DNA of 10,845 bases from Lachnospiraceae bacterium UBA3850 (lineage in GTDB: Bacteria > Bacillota > Clostridia > Lachnospirales > Lachnospiraceae), in assembly GCA_002392655.1 (NCBI GenBank), contig DGHK01000025.1, forward strand, positions 1 through 10,845. Reading direction: 5' to 3'. Shown piece by piece: positions 702 through 10,845 of this stretch (its first letter is position 1; every line of letters begins with the position of its first letter). The notes below the pieces were generated by a model, which was given only the letters and a program-made list of their open reading frames with translations, did not search any database and was not told where the DNA came from. A program made the translations under genes and the position numbers.

Positions 702-2231
702 TTAACCCTCCTTTCCTTCTTCTGACTGTCCCGCAATGGTCTTCATGATTCCGCTCTGTGTCAGATCGTCGCCTGTAAGCTCGCCTACCATCTTACGGTC
801 TCTCATGACAACGAGTCTTGAGCAAGTACGAAGCATCTCGTCTGTTTCAGAGGAAATGAATGTGATACTCATTCCTTCAGATGCAAGCTTCAGAACAAGC
901 TTCTGTATATCAACCTTGGTACCTACGTCGATACCTCTGGTTGGTTCATCAAGTATCAGGTATTCCGGATGCATCAGCAGCCATCTGGCCAGAATAACCT
1001 TCTGCTGATTTCCACCTGAAAGTGACTTGATCGGGGTATCTGCCGAAGCAGTTTTTATATCCAGCAAATCGATATATTCCTCTGCCAGCTTATATGTTTT
1101 CGCCTTCGAATATGGTTTAAAGAAACCACGGAGCACCTGAGATGCAAGTATGATATTCTCTCTTACCGAGAGATCTCCTATGATACCATCCACCTTTCTG
1201 TCTTCCGGCAGATAAGCTATACCATGCTTCATTGCATCCAGCGGTTTGGATATCTTGATATCCTCTCCATGCATCTTTACGTGACCGCCCAGAACTCTGT
1301 CTGCACCGAAGATCGCTCTTACGCTCTCGCTTCGTCCTGATCCGAGAAGTCCTGTAAAGCCGTTTACCTCTCCCTTGTTTATATAGAAGTTGAAAGGACT
1401 TATTCCGGCGTCACTCTGCAGCTGCTCTGCTTCAAATACAGGCGCCTCGTCCGCAGCCTGATCAAATGCTTTTGTATCTCCCTTTATGTCTGACAGATCA
1501 TCCAGCTCTTTACCAAGCATCTTGGATACCAGCTGAACTCTCGGAAGATTTTCTATCTCATATTCTCCGACAAGCTTTCCATCTCTTAAAACCGTTATCT
1601 TGTCACACACTTCATAAACCTGGTCAAGGAAATGTGTAACGAAGATGATACCTACTCCCTTTGCCTTCAGGTCTCTCATAAGACCAAAAAGCTTCTGAAC
1701 CTCACTCTCATCAAGCGATGATGTTGGCTCATCAAGTATCAGAACCTTACACTCCATATCAACCGCTCTCGCAATCGCTACCATCTGCTGCACTGCAAGC
1801 GAACAGCTGGCCAGCTGCTGGGTTGCCTTTGCAGGAATATCAAGAGACTTCAGGATATTATCTGCATCCTCGTTCATTTTCTTCCAGTTACGAAGACGGC
1901 TCTTGGTTCTTCCTATAAACATATTCTCTGCTACCGTAAGATTCGGACAAAGTGTAATTTCCTGATAAACAGTAGAGATTCCCAGATTCTGAGCATCCTG
2001 AGGTGAATGAATATGCACTTCACCTTCGTTACCCTTCAGGAAAATTTCTCCTTCTTCCTTCTCGTATACGCCTGTAATAACCTTGATCAGTGTAGATTTT
2101 CCTGCACCGTTTTCACCCATCAGAGCATGTATCTCGCCCTCACGCAAGGTAAAATCCACAGCCTGAAGAGCACGTACACCCGGAAAGCTTTTATATATAT
2201 TATGTAATTCCAGTACTGCGTTATCTTTCAC
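702..2231 (-). CDS. Sugar ABC transporter ATP-binding protein, two nucleotide-binding domains (YtfR/MglA-like)
   Basis: This 509-residue cytoplasmic ATPase energises the importer formed with the permease encoded just downstream. It is a tandem duplication of ABC domains, as usual in the MglA/RbsA/YtfR family (about 500 residues). Domain 1 has Walker A GENGAGKST at 39-47, Q-loop Q90, a degenerate signature CSLAVQQ at 143-149, Walker B ending D167-E168 and H-loop H200. Domain 2 has a degenerate Walker A-like GLLGSGRSE at 294-302, a canonical LSGGNQQ at 404-410 and Walker B with D428-E429. The altered Walker A in domain 2 is normal for this family and means only one fully competent ATP site. The start is GTG at 2229-2231, not ATG; GAGG at 2239-2242 is 7 nt upstream. 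An 81-nt gap with a strong hairpin separates it from the binding-protein gene before it. The family call is certain; arabinose or arabinofuranose as substrate is inferred. Confidence 0.96.
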   Translation of the reverse strand: MKDNAVLELHNIYKSFPGVRALQAVDFTLREGEIHALMGENGAGKSTLIKVITGVYEKEEGEIFLKGNEGEVHIHSPQDAQNLGISTVYQEITLCPNLTVAENMFIGRTKSRLRNWKKMNEDADNILKSLDIPAKATQQLASCSLAVQQMVAIARAVDMECKVLILDEPTSSLDESEVQKLFGLMRDLKAKGVGIIFVTHFLDQVYEVCDKITVLRDGKLVGEYEIENLPRVQLVSKMLGKELDDLSDIKGDTKAFDQAADEAPVFEAEQLQSDAGISPFNFYINKGEVNGFTGLLGSGRSESVRAIFGADRVLGGHVKMHGEDIKISKPLDAMKHGIAYLPEDRKVDGIIGDLSVRENIILASQVLRGFFKPYSKAKTYKLAEEYIDLLDIKTASADTPIKSLSGGNQQKVILARWLLMHPEYLILDEPTRGIDVGTKVDIQKLVLKLASEGMSITFISSETDEMLRTCSRLVVMRDRKMVGELTGDDLTQSGIMKTIAGQSEEGKEG

Positions 2232-2236
2232 TGTTT

Positions 2237-2242
2237 CACCTC
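2237..2242 (-). promoter_or_regulatory. Ribosome binding site that fixes the ATPase GTG start
   Basis: GAGGTG on the minus strand lies 5-9 nt before the GTG at 2229-2231. No in-frame ATG fits the conserved N-terminus: the nearby ATG at 2242-2244 reads ATG AGG TGA and stops at once. This supports GTG as the true start. Confidence 0.7.
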
Positions 2243-2261
2243 ATTCTTATACCTCTAAAAA

Positions 2262-2293
2262 GGGCACGACATATAACTGTATATGCCGCACCC
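2262..2293 (-). terminator. Intergenic hairpin plus U-run between binding-protein and ATPase genes
   Basis: On the transcribed (minus) strand, 14 bases at 2280-2293 pair with 14 bases at 2262-2275 around a 4-base loop (2276-2279), and five U follow at 2257-2261. Eleven pairs are Watson-Crick and three are G-U wobbles (one U-G and two G-U). Those three positions are mismatches on the plus strand, so the fold works only in minus-strand RNA. It starts 20 nt after the stop of the binding-protein gene. It has the shape of an intrinsic terminator. Because the ATPase lies in the same direction 31 nt beyond with no clear promoter, partial termination or a 3'-end stabilising hairpin is more likely than full termination. 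Such hairpins commonly make binding protein more abundant than its membrane partners. Confidence 0.75.
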
Positions 2294-2312
2294 CTCTCAG
2301 TTTTATTTAAAC

Positions 2313-3347
2313 TTAGATTCCGTAGTTATCAACGTCTTCCTGAGTAATAGTTGTTGCGTCAAATCCCTTTTCTTCCATGATGATTGTCTTCTCTGAAAGT
2401 GTCTCGCCATTTTCAAGCTTCTTGATAACGTCATCAATATACTTAGCCTGGAAAGGATTACACTGTCCATCATAGTTCCAGTTCTTGTTAAGGAGCTCTT
2501 CAAGTGCCCACTTGTTACAGTCAAATCCCATTACTACTACGTCTTTATCAACACCGTGTGAGATGTTAGCCTTGTCAAGTGCCTCTACAGCACCCTTAGC
2601 CATATCGTCGTTCTCTGCATAGATTACGTTGAACTTCTCGCCTGAATCGATAACTGACTGAACGATCTGCTGAGCCTTCTCTGCATTCCACTCAGCTGTC
2701 TGCTGCTGAACGATGTTCCATCCATTTTCCTTAGCCATAGTATCAAGTGCTCCTGATCTACCCTGCTGAGCTGCTGATCCCATAACACCCTGAAGGTGGA
2801 TTATGTTGTACTCGCCGAGGTTCTGATCCTTAAGCCAGTTAGCTGCTGTCTCGCCTTCCTTGTCCATATCAGATACGATTGATGCCTCATAGAGACTGTC
2901 ACTTGCATCGATAGTACGGTCGAAGAGGATAACTCTAACGCCTGCGTCCTGTGCATCCTTAAGTACGCTGTCCCAACCTGATGTATCAGCTGCTGAAAGA
3001 AGCAGATAGTCAACGCCGTCCTGGATGAACTTCTGAGCTGATGTGATCTGCTCATCATTCTTTAAGCTGTAAGCAAATGATGCATCATATCCATTTGCCT
3101 CACAGAACATAGCCTTGAGATCCTTATCGTTTGCTGTACGATATCCGGACTCGTTAGGATCGTTATTGATGATACCAACCTTGATTAAGTCTCCGCCGCC
3201 GCCCGATGTGTCGGCTGCTGTAGTAGCCTCTGTATCGCCTGATCCTGAATCTGATTTCTTGTCATCAGATGAACCACATGCTGCCATTGAGAGCACCATT
3301 GTGGATGCAACGAGAGTTGCAAGTAACTTTCTACCAAATTTCTTCAT
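2313..3347 (-). CDS. Sugar-binding lipoprotein of the ABC importer (YtfQ-like, periplasmic-binding-protein type 1)
   Basis: This 344-residue solute-binding lipoprotein probably delivers sugar to the importer encoded downstream. The signal peptide has basic residues at 2-7, a hydrophobic stretch at 8-21 and a lipobox SMAAC with the lipidated Cys at 24. A Gly/Ser/Asp/Thr-rich linker (25-53) follows, typical of Gram-positive lipoproteins. The mature fold begins at LIKVGI (54-59). YtfQ-class landmarks are ESGYRTAN (66-73), DTSGWDSVL (121-129), the DR pair at 143-144, a YAENDD stretch in the C-terminal lobe and QCNPFQA further on. It is related to the binding protein at 3559-4644 but clearly diverged: in the ungapped block 122-148 versus 114-140 of that protein, 14 of 27 residues match. 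ATG is at 3345-3347, with a strong GGAGGG at 3356-3361 eight nt upstream. The preceding terminator implies its own promoter. Ligand is inferred as L-arabinose, perhaps the furanose form; galactofuranose or another pentose is possible. Confidence 0.93.
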   Translation of the reverse strand: MKKFGRKLLATLVASTMVLSMAACGSSDDKKSDSGSGDTEATTAADTSGGGGDLIKVGIINNDPNESGYRTANDKDLKAMFCEANGYDASFAYSLKNDEQITSAQKFIQDGVDYLLLSAADTSGWDSVLKDAQDAGVRVILFDRTIDASDSLYEASIVSDMDKEGETAANWLKDQNLGEYNIIHLQGVMGSAAQQGRSGALDTMAKENGWNIVQQQTAEWNAEKAQQIVQSVIDSGEKFNVIYAENDDMAKGAVEALDKANISHGVDKDVVVMGFDCNKWALEELLNKNWNYDGQCNPFQAKYIDDVIKKLENGETLSEKTIIMEEKGFDATTITQEDVDNYGI

Positions 3348-3368
3348 AAATAAAACCCTCCATCCATT

Positions 3369-3386
3369 TTTATAAAGTTTATAAAG
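3369..3386. repeat. Tandem 9-bp repeat TTTATAAAG x2 in the leader
   Basis: Plus-strand TTTATAAAG occurs at 3369-3377 and again at 3378-3386, followed by a partial third copy (TTT). Each unit contains the 8-bp palindrome TTTATAAA. It sits 8-25 nt upstream of the GGAGGG ribosome site of the importer binding-protein gene. It may be only low-complexity AT sequence, or an A/U-rich element affecting initiation or mRNA stability. Confidence 0.5.
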
Positions 3387-3430
3387 TTTTTCCGTTACTT
3401 ATGGGTAGAGTGTAGCAAAATAAAAAACCA

Positions 3431-3475
3431 TTTGATACGGACTATTTTTCGATTTTTTTTAGAATTTTTATCAAA
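3431..3475. repeat. Spaced inverted repeat TTTGATA ... TATCAAA, candidate operator
   Basis: TTTGATA at 3431-3437 is the exact reverse complement of TATCAAA at 3469-3475, with a 31-nt AT-rich spacer. The half-sites are 38 bp centre to centre, not far from four helical turns, and lie just upstream of where the importer promoter should be. A regulator site is possible, but seven AT-rich bases can pair by chance in such sequence. Confidence 0.3.
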
Positions 3476-3476
3476 G

Positions 3477-3510
3477 AAAAATGGACCGGAACCATGTCCG
3501 ATCCATTTTT
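3477..3510 (-). terminator. Intrinsic terminator after the sensor/catabolic unit
   Basis: The arms 3477-3485 and 3502-3510 pair perfectly over 9 bp (AAAAATGGA/TCCATTTTT). A one-base mismatch (3486/3501) follows, then 4 more GC-rich pairs (3487-3490 with 3497-3500) around a 6-base loop ACCATG. The descending arm on the minus strand ends in UUUUU then CUUU. It lies about 48 nt past the stop of the binding-protein gene at 3559 and before the importer leader. The flanking A/T runs make it potentially bidirectional, but all neighbouring genes use the minus strand. Confidence 0.82.
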
Positions 3511-3558
3511 ATGATTTTTTACAAAAAAAGTTGAAAATGTTATTCAATTGTCAAAACA

Positions 3559-4644
3559 CTAGTATTCTCTGCTTCTTATTACCTCATCTGAAAATATGGT
3601 TATATCATACTCTACATCATCTATCTGAACGCTTTTTACAGTATCATCAACAGCGAAAACGCTCTCATTTACATATGTATACTTCTGGAAATCCTCTCCG
3701 TTTTTTACCTTGTTTATAAGCTCCTTCAGGTAGGATCCCTGAAGCGGATTACACTCTACATCCAGTGCAATTTTGCCCTCCTTCATCATGTTAAGTCCCG
3801 AATGGGCAGCATCGAAGGATATGATAAGTATCTCTCCGTTTGCTATATCTGTTCCAACCTTTCGACCGGACTCTTCGATTGCTTCTATGGCACCTACTGC
3901 CTCATTATCATTTTCGCAGTAAACCACGTTGATATCCTCATGTTCCTTAAGGAGTGATTCCATAACCTCCTTACCCTTCGCCTGTGTATAATCGGCAGGA
4001 ACCTCAGCCAGAATAGTCCATCCATATTTAGCAGCTGCGTTCTCAAGTCCTCCGGTTCTTCCTATCTGCGCTGTCGCACCAAGCGTTCCCTGTATATCAA
4101 CAATCCTCAGATCCTCCGGATTAATACCCTTCTTCGCTGTAAAACTATTCAGCCATTCACAAGCCAGATCACCTTCACGCTTGAAGTCTGAGCCTACCCA
4201 GGCGGTATAGAGATATGTATCCTCAACATCAACCATTCTGTCAACTACGATAACAGGGATTCCGGCATCCTTCGCTTCCTGAAGAACAGTATCCCATCCG
4301 GTTTCCGTTACAGGCGCAAGAACTATGAAGTCAACCTCCTGCTGGATAAAATTCCTAATGGCCAGTATCTGTTTATCCTGCTTCTGCTGAGCATCATCAA
4401 ACATAAGTTCAAAGCCATTCGCTCTGGTAAGAATATTTCTGATAGATTCTGTGTTTGCAACACGCCAGTCAGACTCGGCGCCGAGCTGCGAGAAACCAAC
4501 TGTTATGAGTTCCTTCTGCTTCTCGGAATCCTTACTCTCCTTTTTCTCAGAACCGCAACCGCTGAGCAAAAGCAGGGTCACCATAACAAGACTTATCAGT
4601 TTTTTATATACTTTCTTTTTTGCTGTACTTATTTTATCACTCAT
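3559..4644 (-). CDS. YtfQ-like sugar-binding lipoprotein in the two-component operon (candidate sensory binding protein)
   Basis: This 361-residue extracellular lipoprotein belongs to the periplasmic-binding-protein type 1 fold. A basic N-terminus (4-15) and hydrophobic segment (16-28) lead to the lipobox LLSGC with Cys at 30, then a charged linker. The mature domain starts at LITVGFSQLGAESDWRVAN (46-64), which resembles E. coli YtfQ more closely than does the second binding protein in this window. Other YtfQ-like stretches are QQKQDKQI (86-93), VTETGWDTVL (112-121) and the DR pair at 135-136. The C-terminus extends beyond the last conserved strand with an acidic tail. TAG stop is at 3559-3561. 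ATG is at 4642-4644, 10 nt after the kinase stop, with only a weak AAGGA overlapping that stop, so translational coupling is likely. Its place directly behind a sensor kinase, with a terminator before the importer, suggests a sensory role like clostridial XylFII. It could instead be a second uptake protein. Confidence 0.92.
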   Translation of the reverse strand: MSDKISTAKKKVYKKLISLVMVTLLLLSGCGSEKKESKDSEKQKELITVGFSQLGAESDWRVANTESIRNILTRANGFELMFDDAQQKQDKQILAIRNFIQQEVDFIVLAPVTETGWDTVLQEAKDAGIPVIVVDRMVDVEDTYLYTAWVGSDFKREGDLACEWLNSFTAKKGINPEDLRIVDIQGTLGATAQIGRTGGLENAAAKYGWTILAEVPADYTQAKGKEVMESLLKEHEDINVVYCENDNEAVGAIEAIEESGRKVGTDIANGEILIISFDAAHSGLNMMKEGKIALDVECNPLQGSYLKELINKVKNGEDFQKYTYVNESVFAVDDTVKSVQIDDVEYDITIFSDEVIRSREY

Positions 4645-4654
4645 TCACATATCC

Positions 4655-6112
4655 TTAAGTCTTCGGTATCCTGACCAAAACTTTTGTTCCTTCTCCATAC
4701 TCACTCTCAACACTCATGCCATACTCTTCTCCGTAAAGCATCTCAAGTCGCTTCTCAACATTTGCCATGCCGTAACCACTCTGATCATCATCTGTTATAT
4801 GACCGGCAATAAGTGATCTGAGCCTTTCCAGCTCTTCAGGTTTCATACCTATACCATCATCAATTATGCTGAAAACGATAGAATCATTTTCTTCTTTTCC
4901 GAGAACTCTTATCATTCCCTTTCCACGCTTATTCTTGATACCATGATAGAGCGCATTTTCCACTATCGGCTGAAGTGTCAGCTTCTGTATATGATACTCC
5001 AGGATTCCCTCATCAAAATCAATCTCATAATCAAGTATATCCTGATATCTGTATCTCTGTATCTCCAGATAACTCTTTACGTGTTCTCTCTCATTACTTA
5101 TTGTTATCTCGCTCTGTCCCTTACTGAGCGAGATTCTGAAAAAGCTTGAAAGTTCCTGTATGATCTGAATTGCCTTCTGATTCTCGCCGGCCTCAGTCAT
5201 CCAGAGTATTGCATCAAGGGTATTATAAAGGAAATGCGGATTTATCTGTTCTTGCAGAAGTCTGAGCTCAGCATCCTTCAGATTCTCCTGCTCCTTATGG
5301 ATATCCTCAACCAGAGTCTCTATCTCCTTGACCATGGTATTAAAGCTCTCTGCCAAAGTCTTCATCTCATCGTTACTATCCGTATGATACGATACGGAGA
5401 AATCTCCACCGGCAAACTTCTCAGTAACCTCGACGAGCTCCTCCACAGGTTTTGTTATCCTCTTGGAAAGCCTGTGCGAGAGTATGTAGATAACTATTAT
5501 CATAACGATAAAAAGAATGACTATGATTCTGATGGTAAGTAAGAGACTATCAGCCACCTTCTTACGGAGATTTTCCATATTGGTGGCTTCATCATATATA
5601 TATGTCTGAATATCTGTCTGAATCAGCGAAGTGAGCGTGCGGATATTCATATCCAGCATCTCCATATTTTCGTCATAGTGACCGCCCTCTTCCACATTCG
5701 CCAGAATATCATCAACTCTTTCGTCCAGAATTCCCAGAAGCTTTATAAGCGCGGTCAGATCCGAAACCACATTTTCCTCGTTTGCATTTTCCTTAAGCTT
5801 CTGAAAATGTTTTCTCGCGTCACTGATAAGAGCCTTCGGGTCATCATCCTCCAGCTTCTCCTCTGCATCAGTCCAGTTAGCATTTCCGATTATGATCCTG
5901 TACATCACTTCGTCCATATCATTCTTGAAGTCCACGCTGTACTCGTTTGCACCGGTAATGTTTCTTACCAGCTGATCATAATCCTGATAGTATCCGTAGA
6001 GTCTGACTATGGCAAAGCCCAGCAGGAAGATAAACGGTATGACGCATATCCAGATATACTTTATTAATTTAGATTGTATCTTGCTTGCTTTCTTTTTTTT
6101 GCTTTTACTCAT
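4655..6112 (-). CDS. Sensor histidine kinase, YesM/LytS type
   Basis: This 485-residue membrane kinase presumably phosphorylates the AraC-type response regulator encoded just upstream. After a Lys-rich start, TM1 spans about 18-38. An extracytoplasmic part of about 150 residues (40-188) appears all-helical and rich in acidic residues, with no Cache or PAS landmark that I recognise. TM2 is at about 190-211. A HAMP domain follows (about 213-265, starting SHRLSKRITKPVEEL) and a short coiled coil. The His_kinase domain carries QINPHFLYN with phospho-acceptor H293. The ATPase domain has N-box N386 (LQPIVENALYHG), a G1 box DDGIGM at 418-423 and a glycine box SGYGMANV at 445-452. The start ATG (6110-6112) is 10 nt after the regulator stop and lacks a good Shine-Dalgarno, which fits coupled translation. 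A binding-protein gene follows 10 nt downstream. A small helical sensor domain with a dedicated binding protein suggests indirect sugar sensing; the ligand is inferred. Confidence 0.95.
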   Translation of the reverse strand: MSKSKKKKASKIQSKLIKYIWICVIPFIFLLGFAIVRLYGYYQDYDQLVRNITGANEYSVDFKNDMDEVMYRIIIGNANWTDAEEKLEDDDPKALISDARKHFQKLKENANEENVVSDLTALIKLLGILDERVDDILANVEEGGHYDENMEMLDMNIRTLTSLIQTDIQTYIYDEATNMENLRKKVADSLLLTIRIIVILFIVMIIVIYILSHRLSKRITKPVEELVEVTEKFAGGDFSVSYHTDSNDEMKTLAESFNTMVKEIETLVEDIHKEQENLKDAELRLLQEQINPHFLYNTLDAILWMTEAGENQKAIQIIQELSSFFRISLSKGQSEITISNEREHVKSYLEIQRYRYQDILDYEIDFDEGILEYHIQKLTLQPIVENALYHGIKNKRGKGMIRVLGKEENDSIVFSIIDDGIGMKPEELERLRSLIAGHITDDDQSGYGMANVEKRLEMLYGEEYGMSVESEYGEGTKVLVRIPKT

Positions 6113-6122
6113 AAATACCGGC

Positions 6123-7796
6123 TTATAATTCCCTCTTCAACCTTCTGTATTCCTTTGGTGACATCCCCTGTGTCTTTTTAAATATATAACTGAAATAGTG
6201 AGGATCTCTGTAACCTACCTCAAAGCCAACATCGGAGGTTTTCATGGATGTAGTTACCAACATGTCCTTCGCTTTTTCCATTCGCACGTTAGTCAGATAA
6301 TCGATAAATGTACTGCCGGTTTCTTTTCTGAAAATTGCACTGAAATGATTGGAGCTTACATTTACATGTGATGAAACTGTCTGAAGAGACATATCATCAT
6401 TCTGATAATTCTCTCTGATATAATCCTGCGCCTTCTCTATTATATCCGAATATCTCTGATCAGACAGCTTGTTTCTATACTCAAGCATAACCGTAAGGAG
6501 TCGTCTCACATAACCCTTAGCCGTGTCAACTGATTCGTTATACCTGACCGGATCTGTAAGCTCTCCAAGCTTCTCGGATATATCATCTCTGGAAAGCCCG
6601 ATGGATTCCATAAGAGAAACCGCACTCAGAAGCGCTTCAACCAGCACATACTGTCTGAGCATCACTGACTCGACAGCTTCCTTGCCCATACTTGCAAAAA
6701 ACTCTTCAACCAGGTCATCTATCTCTGATATGGTTCCATGCTTCATGAAGTTATAGATGGTCCTCTTAGATATCATACTGACATCGATACTCTTGATATC
6801 AAGGACGTCTATTTTGTCCGCCGTACTGTTTCTTTCGGCTATGACATCCTCCTTGGAACCCTTTGTATCCTCCTCATCACCGTAGAATACAAAGCTGTCG
6901 TCATACATATATCTCTCAGCAAATTTTTTGCTGGCATCCGAATATGAGATATTCATATCACGGATTCTTTCAACCGGTTTACCCACTGAGATAAAGTATT
7001 TCATATCCGGATAATCCTTCATAACTTCGGCGATATTATCTATGCCCATCTTAATCTTGCTTTCCATTTCCTCAGGACTGTCCAATGCGTTTAAAAAGCA
7101 GAGAACGTCGCCGACCTGTTCATACAGATACACGTCGCCAACGTCAGAAAACATATCCTTTATTTTTATATAGATTTCTTCCTTGACTGCCGAATATTCA
7201 TCCAGTTCAACCGTTCCTCCGGACTTTGGAAAAACCTGCATAAGAACAGCTGAATAGAAAGCAGCCGTAATCTCAATTTCCAGTTTCTTACCAAGGTTAA
7301 CAGACTCCTGAACAGACAGCTTGCCTCCTATTACATCGTGAAGGAACTTCTGCTGTTCAAGAATCCTTATCTCTTCTCTGTCCTTTATATATCTGGTCCT
7401 GACCTCTTCCTCCTGACGCTGAACCTTGATATCCTCAGCGATACGCTTCAGCTCTGTCATGAGACTTTCTCCAGAAACAGGCTTCAATATATATTCTTCA
7501 ACTCCTATGCTTATTGCCTTCTTAGCATAATTAAAATCATCAAAACCACTAAGTACAACTATTTTGATATTCGGGAGCTCCTTCTTCACAAGTCCGGAAA
7601 GCTCCAGTCCATCCATAAATGGCATACGAATATCAGTGATGAGTATATCCGGCTTCGTCTTCATTATCTTCGGAAAAGCAACCTCACCGTCACATGCTTC
7701 ACCGACCAGTTCAAAGCCATCACTCTCCCAATCGACTGATTTCTTGATTCCTTCTCTTATTGCATATTCGTCTTCAACCAGAAAAACCTTAATCAT
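6123..7796 (-). CDS. Response regulator with AraC-type DNA-binding domain, YesN type
   Basis: This 557-residue transcription regulator is paired with the kinase encoded next. The receiver domain (1-120) shows the acidic pair E8-D9, phospho-acceptor D55 in ILITDIRMP, S83 and K105 followed by Pro. A charged helical linker (about 115-150) leads to a middle region (about 150-300) that ends with a FISVGKPVERI...SYSDA stretch, like the degenerate GGDEF-like module seen in YesN/CdaR-type proteins; that assignment is moderate. The last 100 residues form two helix-turn-helix units of the AraC family, including VSSHVNVSSNHFSAIFRKETG and VGFEVGYRDPHYFSYIFKK, interrupted here by residues 489-515 or so. 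I place the start at ATG 7794-7796 because AAAGG (7805-7809) lies 8 nt upstream and receivers of this family begin MIKVFLVED. The longer reading from GTG 7818-7820 has no ribosome site. Likely targets are the importer promoter near 3348-3476 and the cluster's own promoter outside the window. Confidence 0.94.
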   Translation of the reverse strand: MIKVFLVEDEYAIREGIKKSVDWESDGFELVGEACDGEVAFPKIMKTKPDILITDIRMPFMDGLELSGLVKKELPNIKIVVLSGFDDFNYAKKAISIGVEEYILKPVSGESLMTELKRIAEDIKVQRQEEEVRTRYIKDREEIRILEQQKFLHDVIGGKLSVQESVNLGKKLEIEITAAFYSAVLMQVFPKSGGTVELDEYSAVKEEIYIKIKDMFSDVGDVYLYEQVGDVLCFLNALDSPEEMESKIKMGIDNIAEVMKDYPDMKYFISVGKPVERIRDMNISYSDASKKFAERYMYDDSFVFYGDEEDTKGSKEDVIAERNSTADKIDVLDIKSIDVSMISKRTIYNFMKHGTISEIDDLVEEFFASMGKEAVESVMLRQYVLVEALLSAVSLMESIGLSRDDISEKLGELTDPVRYNESVDTAKGYVRRLLTVMLEYRNKLSDQRYSDIIEKAQDYIRENYQNDDMSLQTVSSHVNVSSNHFSAIFRKETGSTFIDYLTNVRMEKAKDMLVTTSMKTSDVGFEVGYRDPHYFSYIFKKTQGMSPKEYRRLKREL

Positions 7797-7804
7797 TTGT
7801 GTAA

Positions 7805-7809
7805 CCTTT
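7805..7809 (-). promoter_or_regulatory. Ribosome binding site that fixes the response-regulator start
   Basis: AAAGG on the minus strand lies 8 nt before the ATG at 7794-7796. The alternative in-frame GTG at 7818-7820 is preceded by AAAGAAACTTA with no purine-rich site. The downstream ATG also matches the usual first residue of YesN receivers. Confidence 0.6.
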
Positions 7810-7846
7810 ATATCTTTCACTAAGTTTCTTTTGGTGTGTTTTATTC

Positions 7847-8542
7847 TCAGTTTTGTCCATAGTACGCATTTGCTCCATGCTTACGGAAGAAATGCTTATC
7901 TCTGATGCAGTCCGGCGCAACCTTGACATCCGGATTAATGAGCTCTGTTTTAAGTGCCATCTTAGCAACCTCCTCCAGAACTACTGCATTATGAACTGCT
8001 TCAGCCGCATCCTTACCCCAGGTAAACGGGCCGTGATTTGTGCAGAGCACGCCGGGCGTATACATAGGATTAAGTCCTCTCTCTTCGAAGGTCTCTATGA
8101 TAACCAAACCGGTATTCTTCTCATAGGCCTCATCTATCTCCTCAGGTGTCAGGCTTCTTGCACACGGAATCTCTCCATAGAAATAATCAGCATGTGTTGT
8201 TCCGTAAAGAGGTATGCTTCTTCCTGCCTGTGCCCATGATGTAGCCTCAGGAGAATGTGTATGAACAACTCCGCCTATCTCGATATATTTCTTATATAGC
8301 TCCAGATGTGTCGGTGTATCGGAAGAAGGCTTATACCTTCCCTCAACCTTATTTCCATCCAGATCCATGACCACCATATCATCGGCGGTCATGGTCTCAT
8401 AATCAACTCCACTTGGCTTTATTACGAACAGTCCTGACTCTCTGTCGATTCCGCTCACATTTCCCCATGTATATGTAACCAGACCTCTTTGGGGAAGCTC
8501 CATGTTTGCTTCAAAAACCTTCTGTTTTAATTCTTCTAACAT
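7847..8542 (-). CDS. araD: L-ribulose-5-phosphate 4-epimerase
   Basis: This 231-residue cytoplasmic enzyme of the class II aldolase/epimerase family interconverts L-ribulose-5-phosphate and D-xylulose-5-phosphate, the last step of L-arabinose breakdown before the pentose phosphate pathway. Length equals that of E. coli AraD. Family residues are in place: substrate-binding TWGNVSG (25-31), KPSG (42-45) and SSDTPTH (73-79), metal-binding H94 and H96 in VVHTHS, D119 in THADYF, H170 in CTNHGP, and a C-terminal AYYGQ with Y228, matching the catalytic Tyr near the E. coli C-terminus. ATG is at 8540-8542, with AAGGA (8550-8554) seven nt upstream. The kinase stop lies only 3 nt before it, so the two are in one operon. 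A 50-nt gap without a terminator leads to the response regulator. The paralogues UlaF/SgbE act on the same substrate in ascorbate pathways, but the isomerase and kinase next door favour arabinose. Confidence 0.96.
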
Positions 8543-8545
8543 AGT

Positions 8546-10159
8546 CTAATCCTTCTTTTCAAATGCTAAAACTGCCGCTTTTTCAACAGGTATAGTTTTC
8601 TTAAATGTCTCCATAAACCTGTTGAAGCCTATCATTTCATCTTCAGGCGCAGTAAATGTGATTCCGTCATTTCCTGCAAATATCCTGTCGCTCAGGAACT
8701 GTGAAAGGGTTTTATCATCCGAGTCTTCTTTACTTTTATCCATCAGATAAAGTGCAAGAACTCCCATGCCCCAGGCACCGCCTTCACCGGCTGTTTCCAT
8801 CAATGTAACCGGACCACCGGTAGCCGCTGACATGATACTCTGTCCAACACCCTTTGTCTTGAAGAAACCACCATGTCCGTACAGCTTTTCAACCTTTACA
8901 TCTTCTTCCTTAAGGAGTATATCAAGTCCGACCTTGAGCGTACTGACTGCTGAATACAGATGCAGTCTCATAAAGTTTGCTAGACTGAAATCAGCATCAG
9001 CATCTCTGATAAACACAGGTCTGCCTGATGTAAATCCTGTGATCGGTTCGCCTGAAAAATAGTTAAAGCCTGCAAGTCCGCCACAATCAGCGCTTCCCTT
9101 AAGCGCAAGATTGAACAGCTTCTCATAGATGACTCCCTTATCTACCTGATAGCCCATAACATCAAGGAATTCATCGAATATATTAATCCATGCATTTATA
9201 TCCGACGTACAGTTATTGCAGTGAACCATAGCCACATCCTTACCATCAGGTGTTGTAACTACATCTAATTCCTCGTGCATCTTCTTAAGAGCATTCTCCA
9301 AAACCACCATGATAAATATGGAGGTGCCCGCAGATACATTTCCTGTTCTTACTGCTACGCTGTTTGTAGCAACCATTCCCGTTCCTGCGTCTCCCTCAGG
9401 TGGGCACATAGGTATGCCGGCTTCCAGAGCACCGCTCGGATCAAGAAGTGCTGCTCCCTCAGCCGTAAGCTTTCCAGCCGATTCTCCAGCCACCAGTACC
9501 TTCGGAAGTATATCCCGAAGCTTCCACCCCAGCTCATACGACTCTATAATCTTATCATATTTTTCGAGATATTGCAGATTATAATCATTAGTTTTACTAT
9601 CGATTGGGAACATACCGGATGCATCACCGACGCCCAGAACCTTCTCTCCACTTAACTTCCAGTGAATATAGCCAGCGAGTGTTGTGAGATATGCTACGTC
9701 CTTGATATGCTCCTCATTATTCAGTATGGCCTGATGCAGATGAGCTATGCTCCATCTCTGAGGAATATTAAAATCAAATTCTTTTGTAAGCTGCTGGGAT
9801 GCCTCGGCTGTTATTGTATTTCTCCAGGTTCTGAAAGGAACCAGAAGCTCGCCGTCCTTATCAAATGGCATATAGCCGTGCATCATAGCACTGAAACCAA
9901 TGGCACCTGTTTTCTTAATGTCAGTACCATATTCTTTTTTTACATTTTCGCGAAGCTCAGCATATGCACCCTGAAGTCCTGTCCAGATCATCTCCAGACT
10001 ATAGGTCCAGATGCCGTCAATATGCTGATTCTCCCATGTGTGACCACCCTGTGCAAGAACCGCTCCGGACTCATCAATCATTACAGCCTTGATTCTTGTT
10101 GATCCGAACTCGATACCTATTGCAGTTCTGCCCTCATCTATTATTTCTTTTACACCCAT
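8546..10159 (-). CDS. FGGY-family carbohydrate kinase, probable L-ribulokinase
   Basis: This 537-residue cytoplasmic sugar kinase most likely phosphorylates L-ribulose to L-ribulose-5-phosphate for the epimerase encoded 3 nt downstream. The first ATP-binding loop is AIGIEFGSTRIKAVMID (13-29), with Glu at 17 where many relatives have Asp. The substrate lobe has GFSAMMHGYMPFD (88-100) and FRTWRN (109-114). The catalytic-base Asp is probably D257 in PPEGDAGTGM, followed by a GNVSAGTS loop (273-280). The second lobe contains GHGGFFKTKG...SIMSAATGGPV and ETAGEGGAWGMGVLA, which replace the usual GGGA/S...W.Q..AD..G.P sequence of xylulokinase and AraB. Length (537) is nearer AraB (about 560) than XylB (about 490). 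I recognise the family but not a standard gene name, so none is given. ATG is at 10157-10159, with GAGG at 10168-10171 eight nt upstream. Specificity for ribulose rather than xylulose or fuculose is inferred from araD and the isomerase. Confidence 0.9.
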   Translation of the reverse strand: MGVKEIIDEGRTAIGIEFGSTRIKAVMIDESGAVLAQGGHTWENQHIDGIWTYSLEMIWTGLQGAYAELRENVKKEYGTDIKKTGAIGFSAMMHGYMPFDKDGELLVPFRTWRNTITAEASQQLTKEFDFNIPQRWSIAHLHQAILNNEEHIKDVAYLTTLAGYIHWKLSGEKVLGVGDASGMFPIDSKTNDYNLQYLEKYDKIIESYELGWKLRDILPKVLVAGESAGKLTAEGAALLDPSGALEAGIPMCPPEGDAGTGMVATNSVAVRTGNVSAGTSIFIMVVLENALKKMHEELDVVTTPDGKDVAMVHCNNCTSDINAWINIFDEFLDVMGYQVDKGVIYEKLFNLALKGSADCGGLAGFNYFSGEPITGFTSGRPVFIRDADADFSLANFMRLHLYSAVSTLKVGLDILLKEEDVKVEKLYGHGGFFKTKGVGQSIMSAATGGPVTLMETAGEGGAWGMGVLALYLMDKSKEDSDDKTLSQFLSDRIFAGNDGITFTAPEDEMIGFNRFMETFKKTIPVEKAAVLAFEKKD

Positions 10160-10164
10160 ATTTT

Positions 10165-10845
10165 TTACCTCGCAAACGGATTCTCTGACGGATATCTGTC
10201 ACCTGCAGGACGGTTATATTCTATCTCATCCAGCTCTACTCCGATAAACTTGAATACCTCGAAGAGTATTCTTCCGTTATGGTGGAATGTGATTGCTGCA
10301 TGATGAGGATAATTCTTCTCAACAAGTACATGTCTGTAGAATCTGCCCATCTCAGGCACTGCAAAGATTCCGATGGAACCAAATGATCTGGTTCTTACAG
10401 GAAGTATCTCACCCTCTGCGACATAAGCTCTGAGCTTTGAATCTGATGTACTCTGAAGTCTGTAAACTGTTGCATGTCCCGGAATCAGGTCACCCTCAAG
10501 CGTTCCGTTAGTAACCTCTTCAGGAAGCGTTCTTGCCATAATCTTCTGATTCTTCATCTCATGGAATGCAAGCTTCGTTGTACATGTATTTCCACAGTGG
10601 AATCCCATAAATGTATCCTTGATCGTATAGTCATAATCGAATTTGCCCTTTATCTCCTCCTCAAACATATCCTTCGGAACTGAGTTATTGATATCAAGAA
10701 GTGTAACTGCGTCATCACTAACTATCTGACCGATATACTCTGAAAGTGCTCCGTAGATATCAACCTCACAGGATACAGGGATGCCTCTCTTAGCCAGGCG
10801 GCTGTTAACGTAGCAAGGAACAAATCCGAACTGTGTCTGGAATGC
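10165..10845 (-). CDS. L-fucose/L-arabinose isomerase family protein (3' part, cut by window edge)
   Basis: The frame is open from the right edge to TAA at 10165-10167, giving the last 226 residues. The N-terminal half lies outside, and the internal ATG at 10666-10668 is not a start, because conserved coding sequence continues upstream of it. The fragment resembles the L-fucose isomerase-related group more than classical AraA. Numbering from the edge, SCEVDIYGAL (25-34) holds a likely metal-binding Glu at 27. MGFHCGNT (80-87) holds a likely metal-ligand His at 83. NYPHHAAITFHHNG (178-191) resembles the C-terminal His motif of both AraA and FucI relatives. The enzyme would convert an aldose to a ketose in the cytoplasm. 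With a kinase 5 nt downstream and araD after that, L-arabinose to L-ribulose is the most sensible reaction. L-fucose or D-arabinose is possible but would not fit araD. Confidence 0.85.
   Translation of the reverse strand, partial: AFQTQFGFVPCYVNSRLAKRGIPVSCEVDIYGALSEYIGQIVSDDAVTLLDINNSVPKDMFEEEIKGKFDYDYTIKDTFMGFHCGNTCTTKLAFHEMKNQKIMARTLPEEVTNGTLEGDLIPGHATVYRLQSTSDSKLRAYVAEGEILPVRTRSFGSIGIFAVPEMGRFYRHVLVEKNYPHHAAITFHHNGRILFEVFKFIGVELDEIEYNRPAGDRYPSENPFAR

Follow-up and report, generated by a model that had tools for sequence, protein, structure and literature searches.

What does an exported substrate-binding protein (SBP) do when its gene, a histidine kinase (HK) gene and the gene of an AraC-type regulator lie side by side, and when the adjoining importer has an SBP of its own? 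We addressed this question for a stretch of 10,845 bases from Lachnospiraceae bacterium UBA3850, which is one whole contig (C39, DGHK01000025.1) and is called the window hereafter. The order on its minus strand is the end of a fucose-isomerase-family protein, an FGGY sugar kinase, AraD, the response regulator (RR), HK, SBP1, SBP2, an ATP-binding cassette (ABC) ATPase and the start of a permease (Table 1), SBP2 being the protein of the importer, which belongs to CUT2. RR and HK lie 10 nt apart, as do HK and SBP1, and the SBP1-SBP2 spacer is 211 nt, in agreement with the tight order of regulator, kinase and lipoprotein reported in a preliminary description of this DNA. According to our results, the locus is conserved and probably encodes a working three-component arabinose sensor.

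We consider it rather likely that SBP1 binds L-arabinose and signals via the kinase and the regulator to the importer promoter. From the gene order and its conservation, the predicted folds, the pocket residues, a promoter block and the pathway genes, we infer complex formation, the ligand, the direction of the signal and DNA binding. SBP1, a lipoprotein outside the membrane, would bind L-arabinose, probably in the furanose form, and would dock on the four-helix outer domain of HK, altering HK activity. Phosphate would then pass from His293 of HK to Asp55 of RR, and this AraC-type regulator would activate the importer promoter (SBP2-ABC-two permeases) at the conserved block that precedes SBP2. 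A second loop, in the cytoplasm, is probably provided by an AraR-like repressor encoded upstream.

The gene order is widely kept. Among 25 loci found, one (L028, 21% identity) was excluded, and the 24 orthologous loci kept have an SBP1 identity of 64-71% (100% in L004, the closest named relative, which comes from the rumen-collection Lachnospiraceae assembly RUG12719). HK is followed by SBP1 in all 24. RR precedes HK in 22, the contigs of the other two beginning within or just before HK, and SBP2 follows SBP1 in 21, the remaining three contigs stopping 100-542 nt past SBP1. AraD lies upstream in 15 of the 24; five contigs are too short to tell, and four loci (L013, L017, L021 and L027) have no AraD upstream despite at least 4 kb of upstream sequence. 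We also took the best 36 matches besides the window's own from 150 genomes of the same family, where at least 36 distant relatives thus exist. These best 36 match the kinase including its outer domain, with 35-46% identity, and a same-strand SBP gene adjoins the kinase in 35 of them, the last one lying at a contig end. At eight of the 36 distant loci (L062-L066, L068, L069 and L085), an AraR-like gene in the opposite direction stands between the sensor and importer genes. In a search of the phylum, with up to seven candidates scored per genome, the outer domain was present in at least five of 398 genomes, four of them in the same family and the own genome included. Locus L132 (positions 7809-17563), from genome G497 of another family in the same phylum, has two kinases with the outer domain around one importer, with RR-HK divergent from SBP-ABC-permeases-HK.

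Ahead of the importer, SBP1 and SBP2 are separated by spacers of 204-268 nt, which for the most part are difficult to align. A conserved block with the motif TCYGTWT and the extended -10 element TGNTAYANT was present, each motif in 20 out of 20, in the regions having both genes, some of these rows being near-copies (e.g. L010/L015 and L024/L025). The window's copy, with TCCGTAT at 3441-3435 and the extended -10 TGCTACACT at 3417-3409, diverges most among the 20, and the promoter scan listed no ordinary sigma-70 site on the minus strand at the block. We then scanned four genomes with an 18-nt core pattern. Three of them (L019, L008 and L023) gave one perfect site each, which by its coordinates is the importer promoter, and the promoter site of the fourth (L014) is one mismatch away. 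The block is a candidate target of the regulator, and a likely one. Sites with one mismatch outnumbered those of a reversed-pattern control in three of the genomes and were rarer than the control sites in the remaining one; because of the excess in three, further targets beyond the importer promoter may exist. As for the terminator that had been described before the importer, it is real in the window (RNA fold z of -4.95, with 0 of 200 shuffles as good), but it is not a conserved part of the locus, the hairpin being found in one of 20 intergenic regions, that of the near-identical L004. The consensus terminator scan did not list this hairpin, and it gave 6 sites where 5.7 are expected on average by chance.

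Which sugar would be sensed? SBP1 models best on solved binders of L-arabinofuranose and D-galactofuranose and is 39-45% identical to the GafA/YtfQ furanose-binding proteins 5ocp, 2vk2, 6hbd and 6hbm. Its YtfQ score of 238.5 bits lies far under the NCBIfam equivalog cut-off (510 bits) and is higher than that of SBP2 (133 bits). SBP1 keeps the GafA/YtfQ pocket (the stacking Trp, the Arg-Asp pair and the other motif residues), with W60, R61, D135 and their neighbours in 24 of 24 sensors, as mapped by alignment and not by coordinates. While the GafA/YtfQ proteins serve importers, SBP1 sits with a kinase. The genes around it point to a pathway of the L-arabinose type, because of AraD, the absence of AraA_N, the fucose-isomerase-family isomerase, the AraR-like repressor and a transaldolase; this fits the link between a sensor-type layout and an arabinose-type pathway made in the preliminary description, the importer having a second SBP. 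AraD scores 388.2 bits against a cut-off of 369 for NF009625, and 379.9 bits, below the 389.1 of TIGR00760. AraA_N, the mark of a canonical AraA, was not found in the genome (assembly 97% complete; 5 of 14 controls were positive), and a Fucose_iso_C protein occupies its place. Neither the isomerase nor the FGGY kinase had a phmmer match in the PDB at E 0.001.

One could argue that the same mechanism senses another sugar, D-galactofuranose/D-galactose or yet another, alone or besides L-arabinose. As judged from the aligned residues, the SBP1 pocket cannot separate L-arabinofuranose from D-galactofuranose, and the position of Phe40, which is proposed to make Shewanella GafA arabinose-selective (PMC10191376), maps by alignment to Asn64 in SBP1. 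Nevertheless, AraD, the AraR-like repressor and the pentose-type genes are present and no galactose genes were seen in L004, and we regard this alternative as unlikely.

A second alternative is that SBP1 merely delivers sugar to the importer and has no signalling role, since it is an ordinary binding protein of the GafA type and its pocket is conserved. We built a tree of 74 SBPs, including 11 of the 23 other window-type loci, with a midpoint root, several long rows and a bootstrap that is unsettled. In this tree one 100/100 group comprises the 12 window-type sensors and is nested within a larger group of 28 rows (97/96) that includes shared and detached SBPs, and the 26 importer-side proteins form a separate 100/100 group. 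The placement of SBP1 away from the importer proteins, its constant position beside the kinase and the terminator that separates it from the importer in the window make a mere delivery role very improbable. That SBP1 is a recent copy of SBP2 was also considered and is ruled out by their places in the tree.

The sensors also differ from the importer proteins (n = 19, partial SBP2 genes excluded) at positions that we take to be sugar contacts from the pocket motif and by analogy with ribose-binding protein. Residues E57, S58, R61, D135, R136, R196, N245 and D278 are common to all proteins of both kinds, whereas F51 and W60 (24 of 24 sensors) are replaced by Ile and Tyr (19 of 19 importer proteins), and Y219 of the sensors by Trp. 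Because of the Phe51/Trp60 difference, the sensor and the importer may read different forms of one sugar. Going further, SBP1 could report freshly released L-arabinofuranose, cut from plant fibre by neighbours, with SBP2 importing another form or a wider set of sugars; we see this as possible but rather unlikely. Behind it stands the search for enzymes: no GH51 C-terminal domain was found in the genome, and its one GH43 match is below the cut-off, so the bacterium may live on arabinose freed by others and the sensor would report sugar that those neighbours have just cut.

In HK, the hydrophobic segments lie near residues 12-42 and 184-217, with the outer domain at about residues 41-187. Modelled without templates, this domain is a four-helix bundle; among natural proteins, its fold is matched best by the LytS domain of XylFII-LytS (root-mean-square deviation of 1.8 Å over 121 residues), so that the predicted structure has the LytSN fold. 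The likeness to XylFII-LytS seen in the preliminary description is thereby strengthened, as is its account of a short and helical outer part; its further statement that this part has no recognised ligand-binding fold goes too far, four-helix bundles being the fold of ligand-binding chemoreceptor domains of the PcaY and Tar types. A PDB profile search with the outer domain returned no LytSN among the best 60 of 143 matches (E up to 10), and we saw no sequence kinship between the outer domains of HK and LytS. In the alignment of this family (A3), 15 of the 36 distant kinases, which lack a clear domain edge or an N-terminal match, were omitted.

Some results weaken the case for SBP1 acting through this kinase. 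Among control kinases of the YesM type, the next 20 rows, which match in the catalytic half, an SBP gene adjoins in 10 of 20 and lies within two genes in 17 of 20; these control SBPs belong to the same superfamily and most of them score weakly, and one control (L101, with a kinase of 448 amino acids) may be a relative. HK-SBP adjacency is thus a common theme in the family and alone proves little, and we gave it less weight because the control kinases are not a clean negative. Besides, the ligand-binding four-helix domains of the PcaY and Tar types score nearly as well as LytSN, as would suit a kinase that binds the signal directly in its bundle and for which SBP1 is dispensable. The SBP gene beside the kinase in nearly all of the best 36 distant matches speaks against such direct binding, an argument that the control kinases weaken, and we find it very unlikely. 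Finally, co-divergence over 14 loci was uninformative, as it did not single out SBP1 as the kinase partner and leaned slightly to SBP2. That SBP2, or both SBPs, would be the partner is hardly tenable in spite of this lean and of the ten loci in the tree where a single SBP lies beside both the kinase and an ABC gene, while others have a dedicated sensor, since SBP1 is what adjoins the kinase in 24 of 24 window-type loci and only the sensor SBP of CuaDSR bound its kinase (PMC10384115).

Is such an arabinose sensor new? The preliminary description knew of no arabinose version, which proved wrong, as Geobacillus araPST-araEGH is in print with nearly the same gene set. The primary paper on the arabinan cluster of Geobacillus stearothermophilus with AraP-AraS-AraT is said to be that of Shulami in 2011, and those on XylFII-LytS-YesN of Clostridium beijerinckii are reportedly of Sun in 2015 and Li in 2017. 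The araPST-araEGH system is presented as an arabinose sensor plus importer (PMC4194401, PMC4617443), with sensing and uptake roles for its two SBPs (PMC10384115); nearly the same genes are tabulated for two Geobacillus strains (PMC4428132), and an SBP-kinase link is proposed for a Parageobacillus arabinose locus (PMC13068155). Our locus is alike in that a CUT2 arabinose importer that has an SBP to itself adjoins a sensor SBP, a kinase and an AraC-type regulator, and in having a GntR-type regulator and AraD-kinase-isomerase genes as well. It differs in gene order (SBP-kinase-regulator in Geobacillus, regulator-kinase-SBP here), in having two permeases (L004), and in its fucose-isomerase-family isomerase and XylB-like kinase; AraP/AraS are likened to SBP1/HK by gene content, not by sequence. 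XylFII-LytS-YesN, a dedicated sensor SBP system for xylose (as cited in PMC10384115 and PMC13068155), shares the fold of the outer kinase domain and a similar layout, but it serves another sugar pathway, and SBP1 stands closer to GafA/YtfQ than it does to binding proteins for xylose. In the cellobiose system CuaDSR of Ruminiclostridium cellulolyticum, CuaD bound the kinase and CuaA did not (PMC10384115, PMC5663094). There too a dedicated sensor SBP accompanies a second, importer SBP and an AraC-type regulator, which acts on the importer operon, whereas the CuaS kinase (627 amino acids) has a long outer domain of mixed fold. We found no paper on a Lachnospiraceae version in the openly licensed literature. 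New features of this locus are its lineage, the promoter block, the family to which the outer domain belongs, a sensor protein of the GafA type and the replacement of the isomerase. Arabinose sensing outside the cell by a paired SBP and kinase would thus extend from Geobacillus to rumen Lachnospiraceae, and both the family of kinase outer domains and the candidate operator are at hand. It raises the question of furanose sensing in bacteria living on sugars freed by others, and specialists might be surprised if sensor and importer were tuned to different forms of the same sugar.

Table 1. Coordinates of the features in the window
Feature	Position	Strand	Basis and remarks
Importer ABC ATPase, YtfR/AraG type	702..2231	-	ORF (open reading frame); Pfam; NCBIfam; next gene is a permease running off the contig
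SBP2, importer lipoprotein, 344 aa (amino acids)	2313..3347	-	ORF; Pfam; NCBIfam
Candidate regulator operator and importer promoter	3401..3475	-	Alignment of 20 spacers; genome scan
Intrinsic terminator hairpin	3477..3510	-	RNA folding; T run to ~3473
SBP1, candidate sensor lipoprotein, GafA/YtfQ type, 361 aa	3559..4644	-	ORF; Pfam Peripla_BP_4; NCBIfam; PDB relatives; lipobox LLSGC
HK, sensor histidine kinase, LytS/YesM type, 485 aa	4655..6112	-	ORF; Pfam HAMP, His_kinase and HATPase_c; His293
RR, response regulator, YesN/AraC type, 557 aa	6123..7796	-	ORF; Pfam Response_reg and HTH_18 (AraC-type helix-turn-helix); phospho-acceptor Asp55
AraD, L-ribulose-5-phosphate 4-epimerase	7847..8542	-	ORF; Pfam; NCBIfam
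FGGY sugar kinase, XylB-like	8546..10159	-	ORF; Pfam; NCBIfam; under all NCBIfam cut-offs
Fucose-isomerase-family protein, C-terminal part	10165..10845	-	Pfam (Fucose_iso_C); frame open to contig end

An alternative RR start, a GTG 8 codons upstream, would move the gene start to 7820. Among orthologues, RR residues 126-450 are about 50% identical, against 84% for the receiver and 77% for the DNA-binding part (medians). In L004 the surroundings include a divergent upstream repressor with a GntR head and a LacI body, which we take to be the build of AraR, a transaldolase-family gene, the full isomerase, two YtfT/YjfF-like permeases and a GH13 protein. No AraR-type palindrome of 15-18 nt came out of a scan for such sites. 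Read by eye, the 13-nt palindrome GTACAAGTTGTAC lies upstream of the L004 transaldolase gene (L004 ~1142-1305), facing the AraR-like repressor, and is a possible repressor site. Contig C55 of the own genome carries the first half of the isomerase, preceded at ~1.6 kb by a weak SBP-like match that would fit the repressor gene. A second isomerase copy in this genome (G000:C2:6290-7826; L136, L138) matches in two pieces at 91-97% similarity, the stretch between these being unmatched; the copy could be a paralogue or stem from contamination (genome contamination 5.4%). Finally, the identity of window positions 702-10668 to L004 is uneven (100% for HK, SBP1 and AraD, 98% for SBP2 and the FGGY kinase, and 95% for the ABC gene), which looks as if parts of the cluster had different histories.
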